DNA of 48,105 bases from an uncultured bacterium. Lineage in GTDB: Bacteria; Desulfobacterota; BSN033; UBA1163. The first letter of the stretch is position 1, and each line of letters starts with the position of its first letter. Below, in pieces: positions 4,742-45,307 of the stretch. The stretch is taken from contig CALIBK010000042.1 of assembly GCA_938045955.1 (NCBI GenBank), positions 1 to 48,105 of the forward strand, read 5' to 3'. Made by a program: the position numbers and the translations under genes. The notes below the pieces were generated by a model. That model ran no database searches. It was given only the letters and a program-made list of their open reading frames with translations, and was not told the origin of the DNA.

Positions 4742-4827
4742 TGCTTCGGCAACCTGGCGATCCTGCAGAAGGCAGGACCCATGGCTTTCCGTCCCAGGAT
4801 TACTCCTGGTTTGGCTTTATCGGCAAA
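4742..4827 (-). ncRNA. GEMM-I (c-di-GMP-I class) riboswitch aptamer
   Basis: On the minus strand the conserved pieces appear in order: AAAGCCAAACC; a hairpin CAGGA-GTAA-TCCTG capped by a GNRA tetraloop; GGGACGGAAAGCC (family consensus GGGACGCAAAGCC); a second hairpin TCCTGC-CTTCT-GCAGGA; and CGCCAGGTTGCCG (consensus GCCGGGTTGCCG). This is the two-hairpin GEMM-I architecture. Aligned by hand on the AAACC block, the position equivalent to Vc2 G20 is G, which favours c-di-GMP over the cGAMP-binding subclass (A at that place). That subclass call is tentative, especially since GGAAAGCC is also seen in Geobacter cGAMP aptamers. The exact boundaries are approximate. Confidence 0.9.
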
Positions 4828-40682: not shown

Positions 40683-41102
40683 ATGAGTCCAGAAAAGAGA
40701 GTCTATTCATCCAAAAAGAAGAGCCTTCCAAAAAAGGGGATTCTGGCGATCGAGAGAAGAAAGTTTCCAAGATACTATATTGAACTCCCGTTGGATTATG
40801 AAAGAAAAGGTAAAAAATCGGATTTTGGAGGTTTCGTGAAGAATGCCAGTGAGGGAGGGATTTTAGTCTATCTCCCCGAGAGATTAGAGATCGGTGAACT
40901 TCTTAAGGTTGAAATCTATTTCCCGAAAGGATTAGAATTAAATACAATTCGGGGGGTAGCAAAAGTGGTATGGGCAGATCTTGCAGCTAAGGAAAGCTGG
41001 AGAGAACATCGATATGGTCTTGCTTTCCAATCCATGCGAAAAGGGGTGCTTCAAAAATTAAGAAATCTTTTAAAAGAAGTGGGCAAGACTTCAAAGTCAT
41101 GA
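40683..41102 (+). CDS. PilZ-domain protein (c-di-GMP receptor)
   Basis: 139-aa PilZ domain, likely binding c-di-GMP. The N-terminal RxxxR-type motif is ERRKFPRYYIELP (R25, R26, R30) and the second motif is N54-A-S56-E-G-G59, matching [D/N]xSxxG. A lysine-rich N-terminal tail of about 20 residues precedes it. ATG 40683 follows GGAGG with 5 nt between; an in-frame ATG at 40659 is less likely. A TTGACT box at 40618 suggests a separate promoter, but its -10 is poor. Together with the GEMM-I riboswitch this shows cyclic-dinucleotide signalling. The output is unknown; the neighbouring mla operon may be coincidental. Confidence 0.9.
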   Translation: MSPEKRVYSSKKKSLPKKGILAIERRKFPRYYIELPLDYERKGKKSDFGGFVKNASEGGILVYLPERLEIGELLKVEIYFPKGLELNTIRGVAKVVWADLAAKESWREHRYGLAFQSMRKGVLQKLRNLLKEVGKTSKS

Positions 41103-41133
41103 AGGAATATCATTTCCTAATGGAGAATTGGCG

Positions 41134-42066
41134 ATGGACTATAAACGTTTTGTAGAGGAACAAATCGATGAGATCAGGCGACTGGTAGGGAATGATCTTG
41201 CAATTAATGCCTTAAGTGGAGGGGTGGATAGTTCTGTCGTCACCGTGCTTGGACATCGCGCGCTCGGTGAAAAACTTAAGACCGTCTTTATCGACAATGG
41301 TCTGATGCGAGCGGGGGAGCCTGAGCGGGTGGTAACTCTTTTTGAGAGAATGGGAATTCCTGTCCGGCTCATCTCGGCCAAGAGGGAGTTTCTCGATGCT
41401 CTGAAGGGATTGACGGATCCAGAGGAGAAACGACAGGCCATCACAAAAACCTTTTACTCACAGGTCTTTGGAAGATTAGTCCGTGAATGGGGGGCAAAAT
41501 TTCTTCTCCACGGAACCATCCTTACGGATATTGAAGAAACGGTAGCCGGAATTAAACGCCAGCATAATATTCTTACTCAGATAGGAATCGATCCAGAAAA
41601 AGAGTTTGGCTACCTGATTATTGAACCTCTGAAAGCCCTAAGGAAGGATGGAGTGAGAGAAGTGGCAAAGGTACTGGGTCTCCCTCGTGATATTACGGAA
41701 AGGATCCCTTTCCCGGGTCCTGCCTTAGCCACCCGGATCGTCGGAGAAGTCACAGAGGAACGTCTGGCCACTGTCCGAGCGGCTACCGCCATTGTGGAGG
41801 AGGAGCTCAAAGGGACCGAGGCTTTCCAATACATGGCCGTTCTTCTCAATGACCGGGCAACAGGAATTCGTGAGGGGAAAAGAGAATTCGGTCAGATCAT
41901 TGTCGTTCGTTGTATTCAAAGTGAAGATGCAAGAACAGCCGTTCCGGTGGAGCTTCCCTGGGAAAAATTAAAACGCTTGTGTGAACGGATTACCTCTCTC
42001 CCTGGAGTCAATCGATGTCTATATGATCTTACGCCAAAACCTCCCGCGACGATTGAATATGTTTAA
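41134..42066 (+). CDS. guaA: GMP synthase ATP-pyrophosphatase subunit, without glutaminase domain
   Basis: Aminates XMP to GMP after adenylation. The PP-loop INALSGGVDSSVVTVLG (about 24-40) and the C-terminal dimerisation domain ending in TPKPPATIEYV are complete and match residues of about 207-525 of E. coli GuaA; the N-terminal class-I glutaminase is absent. At 310 aa it resembles the archaeal GuaA-B subunit. ATG 41134 follows GGAGA by 7 nt; an in-frame TTG 6 nt upstream is unlikely. No glutaminase partner is encoded in the window, so it must use a distant subunit or free ammonia; alternatively it is a paralogue beside a full-length GuaA. Confidence 0.9.
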   Translation: MDYKRFVEEQIDEIRRLVGNDLAINALSGGVDSSVVTVLGHRALGEKLKTVFIDNGLMRAGEPERVVTLFERMGIPVRLISAKREFLDALKGLTDPEEKRQAITKTFYSQVFGRLVREWGAKFLLHGTILTDIEETVAGIKRQHNILTQIGIDPEKEFGYLIIEPLKALRKDGVREVAKVLGLPRDITERIPFPGPALATRIVGEVTEERLATVRAATAIVEEELKGTEAFQYMAVLLNDRATGIREGKREFGQIIVVRCIQSEDARTAVPVELPWEKLKRLCERITSLPGVNRCLYDLTPKPPATIEYV

Positions 42067-42109
42067 AAAATCGAATTAAACAAGATCCAATAAAACGAGT
42101 AGAGGGCCG

Positions 42110-42307
42110 ATGGAGGATCAGAAAAGACTGGCTATTCTAATTCATCATTGGATCGAGCATAATGAAAGCCATCAAGAAGAATATCGAAAATGGGCGGAAA
42201 GAGCAGAAAAATTAGGACTCTCCGTGGTAAAGACAAAAATGGAAGAGGCCATCGAGGGGCTTCGTCAATGCAATCTTTCTCTTCAAGAAGCCCTAAAGTC
42301 CCTTTAG
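42110..42307 (+). CDS. Conserved-looking small helical protein
   Basis: 65-aa protein, almost entirely predicted helix, with a histidine-rich N-terminal stretch LIHHWIEHNESHQEEYRKWA and one cysteine at C54. I do not recognise a named family. ATG 42110 has GAGGG five bases upstream. It lies 43 nt after guaA and before the small-gene patch. The histidines could bind metal, but this is a guess. Confidence 0.7.
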   Translation: MEDQKRLAILIHHWIEHNESHQEEYRKWAERAEKLGLSVVKTKMEEAIEGLRQCNLSLQEALKSL

Positions 42308-42308
42308 T

Positions 42309-42422
42309 TTAACCTACCAATTTTTCCCCTAATTCATAGGCTTTCTGTTTGGCTTCTTTATTCTTATCCACCTTTCCCTTGACAAGATGTTCAATTTTTA
42401 ATACGTTTAATTTGAGACGCAT
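42309..42422 (-). CDS. Possible 37-aa minus-strand mini-protein
   Basis: Open frame of 37 codons ending KAYELGEKLVG, with sensible composition (HLVKGKVDKNKEAKQKAYEL) and lysine codons like its neighbours. There is no SD before ATG 42422, and the frame opens right after an in-frame TGA, so it may instead be the tail of a decayed gene. It is the only thing visible in the 141-nt gap 42308-42448. Confidence 0.3.
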   Translation of the reverse strand: MRLKLNVLKIEHLVKGKVDKNKEAKQKAYELGEKLVG

Positions 42423-42448
42423 TCATAGCATTCATCAAGGAGAGATTC

Positions 42449-42640
42449 ATGGAAACCCATCTTGAGCATAGAAAATCCAAAAGGGGAAGGCCCAAGAGCC
42501 CAAAAGTGGAACTCTTGGATTTAAAGGGTTTAAAGAAAAGGGTCAAACAGATCAAAAAGAGAAAGGCGGGGCTCTATCGAAAAAAAAACCAAAAGCGAAT
42601 CCGAACGTTAGGTCCCGAAATCACTCGGGATGAGGTTTAG
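42449..42640 (+). CDS. Small basic protein with an AT-hook-like motif
   Basis: 63-aa strongly basic protein. RKSKRGRPKSPKVELL near the N-terminus contains RGRP, the core of the AT-hook DNA-minor-groove motif; the middle (KKRVKQIKKRKAGLYRKKNQ) is a run of lysine and arginine. ATG 42449 follows AAGGAG by 7 nt, a strong SD that supports a real gene. The family is not recognised; DNA or RNA binding is plausible from composition only. It lies 3 nt before the next gene, so the two are probably coupled. Confidence 0.65.
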   Translation: METHLEHRKSKRGRPKSPKVELLDLKGLKKRVKQIKKRKAGLYRKKNQKRIRTLGPEITRDEV

Positions 42641-42643
42641 CCA

Positions 42644-43039
42644 TTGGATAAGGTCCTTCATCTCATGGAAAAGGTAATGAAAAAAGAAAAAAAGAAAGAA
42701 GATAAAACAAAGAAAAATGGCCTGAGCCCTCAAGGTCGGTGCCTCTTCTCCTGGGAGAAACTGGTTGAGATGAAGGAGATGAAAACCCAGTTTTTCGCAG
42801 GAGATGGGTTCAAACGGCTGAGAATCCTCGATGTGGACCATAAGACAAAGAATCTTCATATGATCTGTGAATTAGGGAAAAAAACTTGGCCTTTGAATTT
42901 CAAGAAGTTAGAGGAGATCCACCAAAAAGTTCATGAAGGAGAGGTTCATTTGATTCCCTATGAGATTGATCGGTTGATGCCGACGTGGGGAAACTTTATC
43001 ACTGGCCTACTCAAATATCTGGGCTGCGAGAAGGAATGA
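42644..43039 (+). CDS. Uncharacterised 131-aa protein
   Basis: Unrecognised protein. The first about 25 residues are lysine-rich (MKKEKKKEDKTKKNG); the rest looks like a compact domain (FFAGDGFKRLRILDVDHKTK, then LGKKTWPLNFKKLEEIHQKV, then LIPYEIDRLMPTWGNFITGL). The start is probably TTG 42644, 8 nt after GAGG; ATGs at 42665 and 42677 are alternatives. It sits 3 nt behind the AT-hook-like gene. It has no signal peptide and no membrane helix. Confidence 0.6.
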   Translation: MDKVLHLMEKVMKKEKKKEDKTKKNGLSPQGRCLFSWEKLVEMKEMKTQFFAGDGFKRLRILDVDHKTKNLHMICELGKKTWPLNFKKLEEIHQKVHEGEVHLIPYEIDRLMPTWGNFITGLLKYLGCEKE

Positions 43040-43051
43040 AATTTTTAAGAG

Positions 43052-43339
43052 TTAAGGATAAGTCGTTTTAAGGAGTTTCATGAGGCTGAACAGCTCTTCT
43101 TTGGTCCATGCCCCTTTTTCTTTGAGCCATTCAGAATCCCCAATAAAATTTGATTCTCTCGGGACTACAAAAAGATCTTTTCTATTCTTTGCCAGATGAC
43201 CAAATTTTAACTTCGCCCATTTGAGCCCGGATTCGACCTGAGTCATTCCCCTCAGGTCCTTCCTTCGCTCTATAAGCATCCCAATGAGCTCGCCTTTTTT
43301 AAGGTCATAATTTTTTAGATAAACTTTATAAAGGATCAT
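43052..43339 (-). CDS. Uncharacterised 95-aa protein
   Basis: Soluble protein with a clear domain look: MILYKVYLKNYDLKKGELIG, then MLIERRKDLRGMTQVESGLK, then WAKLKFGHLAKNRKDLFVVP. I do not recognise the family. I chose ATG 43339 with AGGA six bases upstream; a longer frame to 43378 would run into tRNA-Leu and is rejected. It lies 10 nt downstream of tRNA-Leu and is probably read from the same promoter. It is convergent with the 131-aa gene, 12 nt apart. Confidence 0.7.
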   Translation of the reverse strand: MILYKVYLKNYDLKKGELIGMLIERRKDLRGMTQVESGLKWAKLKFGHLAKNRKDLFVVPRESNFIGDSEWLKEKGAWTKEELFSLMKLLKTTYP

Positions 43340-43348
43340 TCGGAATCC

Positions 43349-43440
43349 TGGTGCCTGAGGCCGGAGTTGAACCGGCACGGTGGGGAACCACCGAGGGATT
43401 TTAAGTCCCTTGCGTCTACCTATTCCGCCACCCAGGCACC
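43349..43440 (-). tRNA. tRNA-Leu (anticodon TAA)
   Basis: On the minus strand: acceptor GGTGCCT/AGGCACC with discriminator A, anticodon arm AGGGA-CTTAAAA-TCCCT giving TAA, a long variable arm CGGTGG-TTCC-CCACCG typical of class-II tRNAs, and T arm GGTTCAACTCC. CCA is not encoded (GGATT follows), unlike the tRNA-Gln here. 92 nt long. Confidence 0.96.
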
Positions 43441-43648: not shown

Positions 43649-45307
43649 ATGAGATCGGATAGAATGAAAAGAGGGTTGGAGCGAGCTCCTCATCGTTCCC
43701 TATTTAAAGCCCTTGGTTTGACTGATCAAGAAATGGACCGACCCATGATCGGGATTGCCAATTCAGCGAATGAGGTCATTCCAGGCCATCTCCACCTACA
43801 CCAGATCGCCCGGGCTGTAAAGGATGGGATTCGAATGGCTGGAGGAACTCCTCTTGAATTCTTCACCATTGGAATCTGCGATGGGATCATTATGGGTCAC
43901 GAAGGGATGAAGTATTCTCTCGGCTCAAGGGAATTGATCGCAGACTCTATCGAGACAATGGCTATGGCTTATCCCTTTGATGGTCTGGTCCTCATTCCAA
44001 ATTGTGATAAAATCGTTCCGGGAATGATGATGGCTGCTGCTCGTCTGAACATTCCCTCCATCCTGATAAGCGGCGGGCCGATGTTGGCGGGTGAATTTCA
44101 TGGAAAGGAGATCGATCTCATCACCATCTTTGAATGGGTAGGAAAGGTGAAAACCGGAGAAATAAGTATAAAAGAATTAAGAGAGGCAGAGGGGTGTGCC
44201 TGTCCTGGAGTGGGCTCCTGTGCAGGAATGTTTACAGCCAACTCGATGAATTGCCTGGCTGAGGTTTTAGGCCTTGCCCTTCCATACAATGGAACCATTC
44301 CAGCTGTCTTTGCAGATCGAATTCGACTCGCAAAGGAGGCGGGCCAAAAGATCATGGAATTAGTAGAAAAAGGAATAAAACCATCTGATATTCTAACTTC
44401 AAAGGCCTTTGAAAATGCGATCACCGTGGATATGGCTTTTGGAGGTTCTACCAATACGACCCTCCATCTTCCAGCAATCGCAAGAGAGGTGGGGATTCCT
44501 CTTTCTCTTGAAGTCTTTAATAAAATCAGTGAAAAGACCCCTCATCTCTGTCACCTCTCCCCTGGAGGGCCTCACCATCTCCAGGACCTCCATCGGTCAG
44601 GAGGAATTCCAGCTCTCATGGCCGAATTGAACCGGGGAGGCCTTATTCATGGGAGTCCAATGACCGTGACCGGTAAAAAAGTAGGAGAAAATATAAAAGG
44701 AAAGAGGGTTTTTGATTCGGAGGTGATCAGACCCTTAGATCATCCTTATCATCCAAAGGGCGGACTGGTTGCCCTTTTTGGGAATCTGGCCCCAAAAGGA
44801 GCAGTGGTAAAGCGTTCTGCCGTAGATGAAACAATGCTCAAGCATAAAGGCCCTGCAAGGGTTTTTAACTCTGAAGAAGAAGCAATGAAAGTGATCATGA
44901 GCCGAAATCTTCGTAAAGGGGAGGTGGTGGTCATTCGATATGAAGGTCCTAAGGGGGGACCAGGAATGAGAGAAATGCTTGCCCCTACTTCTGCCATTGT
45001 CGGAATTGGAATGGATCGAGAAATAGCCCTCCTAACGGATGGTCGTTTCTCTGGAGGAAGCCGAGGCGCCGCTATTGGCCACATCTCTCCTGAAGCGGCA
45101 GAAGGAGGCCCCATCGCCATCGTTCAGGATGGAGACTTAATTGAGATTGATATTCCCGATAAGAGACTCGATCTTCTGGTCCCGGAAGAGGAGATAAAGA
45201 GAAGATTCTCCAGGTGGAGACCTCTTCAAAAGGCGGTAAAAGGGTATCTGAAAAGGTATTCCAAGCTTGTCCAATCCGCGTCTAATGGAGCGACGTTCGA
45301 AGAGTAG
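43649..45307 (+). CDS. ilvD: Dihydroxy-acid dehydratase
   Basis: Dehydrates dihydroxy acids to the 2-keto acids of valine and isoleucine. Fe-S ligands are C119 in PNCDKIVPG and C191 in [16 protein letters not shown]; the third position used in the [2Fe-2S] subclass is Gly here (EVIPGHLHL, as in E. coli VPGHVHL), so a [4Fe-4S]-type enzyme is expected. The 552-aa length is normal. SD AAAGGAG precedes ATG 43649. Its last 26 nt overlap the 3' end of larA on the other strand. No other ilv or leu gene is in the window. Confidence 0.96.

Follow-up and report, generated by a model that had tools for sequence, protein, structure and literature searches.

In a review (PMC10526850), many archaea are described as having a two-subunit GMP synthase, and the bacterial enzymes are described as two-domain. 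The gene compared here with these enzymes flanks a patch of short open reading frames (ORFs) in an uncultured member of the Desulfobacterota and had been named guaA in an earlier, sequence-only reading of the locus. Its product of 311 amino acids (guaA2) has no GATase match and scores below the cut-offs of TIGR00884 (319.7 bits, cut-off 338.75) and NF000848 (285.5 bits, cut-off 400), so that it does not qualify as a full-length glutamine-hydrolysing GMP synthase. The best matches among PDB sequences were 2dpl (E 1.9e-81) and 6jp9 (E 1.2e-79), both of the 'subunit B' kind, followed by a 503-aa enzyme at E 4.9e-58. Judged from these matches, guaA2 is a GMP synthase ATPPase subunit that lacks the glutaminase; its nearest counterpart is the separate 'subunit B' type, likewise a stand-alone ATPPase and dimerisation unit. 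Unlike that type, it coexists with a full-length two-domain GuaA, whose frame lies on contig C160 of the same genome; besides this full-length protein, the glutaminase model TIGR00888 gave weaker matches, none of them over the cut-off. The name guaA thus holds in the sense of a guaA-like gene, and the gene is a GATase-less paralog. Among 59 genomes compared, including the window's own and 17 (G000-G016) of its own family, the short form was found in 25 at an identity of at least 57%, with one copy (G032) in a broken frame. In two genomes (G031 and G052), both outside the 30-genome glutaminase-domain search, the short form was the only match at E<=1e-20.

The window, that is, the whole stretch of 48,105 nucleotides analysed here, is contig C42 of a genome of 2,689,247 bases in 177 contigs. 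The interval from guaA2 to ilvD is filled by five short ORFs, named A to E, and a tRNA-Leu gene (Table 1), and the presence of short ORFs at this place had been correctly noted before. The sequence-only reading had seen in them four to five lysine-rich genes of no known function, some with strong Shine-Dalgarno sequences, forming an unusual concentration of unknowns amid core genes. None of the five ORFs reached a Pfam or NCBIfam cut-off, and in these two libraries the lack of an assigned function was borne out. The lysine share is high in B (24%), C (22%), D (18%) and E (16%), compared with a mean of 7.0% (SD 2.1, maximum 13.6) in 44 other ORFs of the window, but the description as lysine-rich does not fit A (9%). 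A strong Shine-Dalgarno sequence precedes C (AAGGAGA); the corresponding letters are AAGG for D and AGGA for E, A has a partial one only, and none is visible for B. Elsewhere in the window, at 4744-4824 on the minus strand, a c-di-GMP-I-GGC riboswitch was matched with 69.2 bits (gathering score 59).

Table 1. Features between guaA2 and ilvD, with their readings and the evidence for them.
Feature	Position	Strand	Reading	Basis
guaA2	41131..42066	+	predicted GMP synthase ATPPase/dimerisation unit without glutaminase domain	TIGR00884, PDB sequences
gene A, 65 aa	42110..42307	+	HWxxHNxxH family, putatively metal-binding	relatives, alignment, pN/pS
ORF B, 37 aa	42309..42422	-	probable 3' relic of a flavoprotein (FMN_red/Flavodoxin_2) gene	sequence match, synteny
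gene C, 63 aa	42449..42640	+	very basic (pI 11.1), upstream of D	synteny, strong Shine-Dalgarno sequence
gene D, ~124 aa	42665..43039 (preferred start; TTG start at 42644 as alternative)	+	family-restricted homologues	homologues, pN/pS, model
gene E, 95 aa	43052..43339	-	probable copy of a dispersed paralog family	pN/pS, model
tRNA-Leu (anticodon TAA)	43349..43437	-		ARAGORN, Rfam tRNA match
ilvD	43649-45307

A search for homologues of the small proteins, as had been proposed, returned relatives for A, C, D and E. In the 59 genomes, A was found in 33 at E<=0.1, including 16 of the 17 genomes of its own family, and D in 15 at E<=0.01, all of the own family. Matches to E occurred in 19 genomes at E<=0.1, of which 15 belong to the own family and the other four are weak (E 0.026-0.086), and C had matches in 12 at E<=0.1, with only five (own included) below 1e-5. 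For A, D and E, the window was compared with four relatives each, which gave pN values of 0.17-0.24 against pS values of 0.73-0.93 that are near saturation; one closer relative pair was therefore added per gene, with a dN of 0.05 against a dS of 0.47 for A, 0.31 for D and 0.27 for E. By these ratios, the three genes show purifying selection. Together with C, they appear to be genuine genes. A lack of both homologues and translation signals, named beforehand as the finding that would speak against the patch, does not apply to these four and applies to B as a gene of its own, so that the count of four to five genes comes to four.

The history of the patch was approached by comparing the window with 14 other contig stretches of the same family that carry A: nine from a sister genus (g2) and five from genus g4. 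In eight of the nine sister-genus contigs, the gene order is lepB, guaA2, A, a flavoprotein gene on the opposite strand, in some cases C, and then D; the ninth (G010) carries a rearranged version that lacks guaA2. Counted singly, lepB, the flavoprotein gene and D are found in 9/9 of these contigs, guaA2 in 8/9 and C before D in 3/9. After D follow tRNA-Leu and ilvD in three of the nine, which are all the contigs where the junction is visible, and in one of these three about 1.7 kb lie between D and the tRNA. The three contigs that show the site have no E between D and tRNA-Leu. In the five g4 contigs, A occurs without these neighbours, and the g4 copies of D are on other stretches. A lepB match was not found in the window near pilZ and guaA2, the only place searched for it. 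A Peptidase_S26 signal peptidase gene lies near 41102-41131 in the nine sister-genus contigs, between pilZ and guaA2 where both are visible, and is absent at the window's site.

At the place of ORF B, the flavoprotein gene is intact in all nine sister-genus contigs, and the intact protein of a relative matches Pfam FMN_red and Flavodoxin_2. The stretch 42318-42410 on the minus strand matches residues 156-186 of this 189-aa flavoprotein with 52% identity (E 0.0018), and as only these residues are left, B holds no complete flavodoxin-like FMN reductase domain. The only other flavoprotein match in the window's genome at E<=0.01 is a 38% paralog on contig C17. Judging from match and position, ORF B is a 3' scrap of the flavoprotein gene whose sister-genus copies are intact. 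A deletion would have removed most of this gene and brought A and C together, and E would have arrived beside the tRNA gene, in both cases one event deduced from a single genome. This deletion and the arrival of E are the best explanation of the tight packing, and it is likely that the patch consists of unrelated genes packed in this way. Since the ORFs lie on both strands, they do not form a single operon, and synteny likewise led to the rejection of one operon. Unknowns amid known genes do stand out in the libraries searched, but strand and synteny, the latter compared in the 14 A-bearing contigs of the same family, speak against a functional cluster. What lies here is a set of neighbouring but unrelated genes, neither a system nor a single gene cluster. 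A dense patch of small unknown genes can thus arise by deletion and insertion and not by shared function.

Gene E is, by its sequence relatives, a copy of a dispersed family of small-protein paralogs. M1, Y4, G20, L22, E24, R25, R26 and W41 are common to 24 aligned members. Two more distant copies are present in the own genome, and in one of them a stop falls within the match; at E<=0.001 the family was found in 14 of 198 genomes of the phylum, seven of them outside the window's family. The other copies have varied neighbours, and three (L110, L111 and L112) share a common site before a gene that appears by eye to encode a membrane hydrolase. The SD-like AGGA of E (43339-43350, minus strand) starts with the last base of the CCA end of tRNA-Leu; the two overlap, and therefore tRNA maturation would cut into the AGGA. 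The structural model of E is beta-beta-alpha-beta, with a mean pLDDT of 75 and with blocks of the first 60 residues scoring 79-90, and no PDB sequence matched E at E<=1. The nearest solved structures to the model are PaaB (3egr; Z 5.9, rmsd 3.9 over 58 residues, Foldseek E 0.42) and T7 Gp2 (2wnm; Z 4.5, rmsd 4.2 over 51 residues), both in the range below Z 8 that the tool itself calls commonplace. For PaaB there is no sequence match from E: the PF06243 profile matched none of the 24 E members at E<=0.1, for which reason PaaB was rejected as the family of E, and it was found in none of 148 genomes of the phylum, own included. A viral origin was also rejected: when viral_contigs were scanned with the E alignment, there were 52 pattern matches but no relative. 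Against PHROGs, A, C, D, E and one relative of E reached a best E of 0.012.

Genes C and D stand in tandem, with C directly before D in the window and in G004, G008 and G014, the four genomes with C at the locus. In D, C33 and C128 are conserved without exception among 16 sequences, and the model has a lysine-rich N-terminus of low confidence and a core with a pLDDT of about 90-98. No trustworthy fold match was obtained for D (best Foldseek E 0.7); the best comparison reached Z 4.0 with an rmsd of 3.7 over 70 residues (9f0x), small barrels and Hfq stayed at or below 3.5, and nothing among the PDB sequences matched at E<=1. The D alignment found two contigs in viral_contigs, with a 40-residue match of 55% at the contig start. 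No function is supported for C, D and E.

Gene A belongs to a family with a wider distribution. Thirty aligned members share an invariant H13, W14, H17, N18, H21 and W28, corresponding to a motif H-W-x2-H-N-x2-H...W found in anaerobic bacteria and archaea. The best named relatives are from deltaproteobacterial, Thermodesulfobacteriota and Syntrophaceae metagenome-assembled genomes (MAGs). In named genomes, 172 stretches encode a relative of A, and the best 80 of these 172 loci, which were kept, come from Deltaproteobacteria, Chloroflexi, Clostridium, Thermosediminibacter, Methanosarcinales, a Spirochaetales MAG and others. The window's A has no match to a Pfam or NCBIfam family at E<=1 in the copies searched, HypA and the known nickel chaperone families included, and its best E among PDB sequences is 0.24. 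None of 5.39 million papers searched contains the motif strings HWIEHN or HWVEHN or the name DUF8180. In three A-family ORFs of Chloroflexi-type MAGs (L147:2934-3356, L158:1003-1524 and L163:4578-5189), a Cys-rich, zinc-ribbon-like N-terminus was seen by eye, and the same three have His-rich stretches in the same frame.

A possible role in metal handling was suggested by the motif, the neighbours and the flanks. Neighbours were screened in the fetched flanks of the loci, using one to four tblastn queries for each gene. In 66 of the named loci (L144-L209), CbiM was found near A in eight and Fur in six, compared with none in 20 loci of E and 30 of guaA2, which served as controls from other lineages and with a smaller total than the A set; FmdE was near A in two loci and HypA in one. 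Of the controls, the E loci had FmdE in 1/20 and nothing else, and the guaA2 loci had none (0/30). In the window's relatives (14 loci, L130-L143), none of CbiM, HypA, FmdE and Fur was near A. When 20 proteins chosen by eye, of which 18 were neighbours of A, were checked against Pfam, CbiM was confirmed in eight loci, FUR in three, HypA and FmdE in two each and ZnuA in one; an ECF transporter component and a binding-protein-dependent transporter were each matched in one locus. His-rich flanks, defined as at least four His in 15 residues outside the core, are present in 17 of the 80 A members, against 29 of 650 neighbouring ORFs; the N-terminal stretch was read from the first in-frame Met and is thus an upper bound. 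The window's A has no such flank. In 24 of the 80 named loci, A has one common neighbour cluster, aconitase-like by eye and no metal transporter.

According to the proposed mechanism, A would be a short helical protein with three His at i, i+4 and i+8 on one helix face. These would hold a transition metal, most likely nickel or cobalt, and the protein would act as a metal buffer or chaperone. Metal binding as such, which motif, neighbours and His-rich flanks point to, has a chance somewhat short of even. The fuller reading is more tentative, with a probability of roughly 0.3: A may be a minimal form of an undescribed nickel/cobalt-handling domain with the motif given above, present in many anaerobic bacteria and archaea, also in versions joined to His- or Cys-rich parts, and kept in the window's family beside a second GMP synthase subunit that stands alone.

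Two other explanations compete for A. It might be a helical protein of other use, for instance kin of the exonuclease VII small subunit, with the nearby metal genes being incidental. The weak Exonuc_VII_S (PF02609) matches in four of 30 relatives (best E 7.1e-05) and the lack of a metal gene near most named loci are consistent with this, but it leaves the invariant histidines and the His-rich flanks unexplained, and the window's A itself has no Pfam match; such a use is therefore possible, though doubtful. Alternatively, the genes could be a functional unit around GMP synthesis, in which A would be an accessory of GuaA2 for ammonia delivery, subunit assembly or regulation. The position of A fits this idea, 46 nt behind guaA2 in the window and 24-28 nt behind its last codon in six of the eight sister-genus contigs with guaA2, whereas about 700 nt separate the two genes in the other two, the stretches fetched from G010 and from the five contigs of another genus have A but no guaA2, A stands beside other genes in many named genomes, and E and B are on the opposite strand. 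A GMP unit thus appears improbable, and metal handling by A remains the preferred reading.

For the patch as a whole, it was considered whether the short ORFs are open by chance, the DNA being AT-rich. The G+C content is 40% over 42070-43340 as compared with 45.5% in the whole window, and B is indeed no gene of its own; however, between A, D and E and their homologues amino-acid changes are far fewer than silent ones, and C recurs ahead of D in three relatives. The idea is refuted for A, D and E and hardly credible overall. E could also be a small mobile element that targets sites behind tRNA genes, given that it begins 9 nt behind the 3' end of tRNA-Leu, that two other copies have a same-strand tRNA 45 and 317 nt upstream, and that the paralogs are at scattered sites. 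A tRNA upstream was found in only three of 23 copies, the window's included, when up to 1500 nt were searched, and a repeated tRNA end was not found on the far side of E, only short imperfect repeats around E and the tRNA, which makes such an element very unlikely. Packing of unrelated genes by loss of the flavoprotein gene and arrival of E is still the favoured history.

The A family, with members in methanogens, clostridia, Chloroflexi and deltaproteobacterial MAGs, comes with a testable prediction of metal binding, and two described groups of proteins are close enough to be compared with it. Like the exonuclease VII small subunit (PF02609), A is small and probably helical, but the weak matches to that family come from relatives and not from the window's A. 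No sequence match links A to the known nickel and cobalt handling families, and the window's A lacks both a His-rich flank and neighbours of this kind. However, in several lineages, A-family genes have genes of this handling (CbiM transporters, HypA, FmdE and Fur) in their vicinity, and 17 of 80 members resemble His-rich metal proteins in their flanks.
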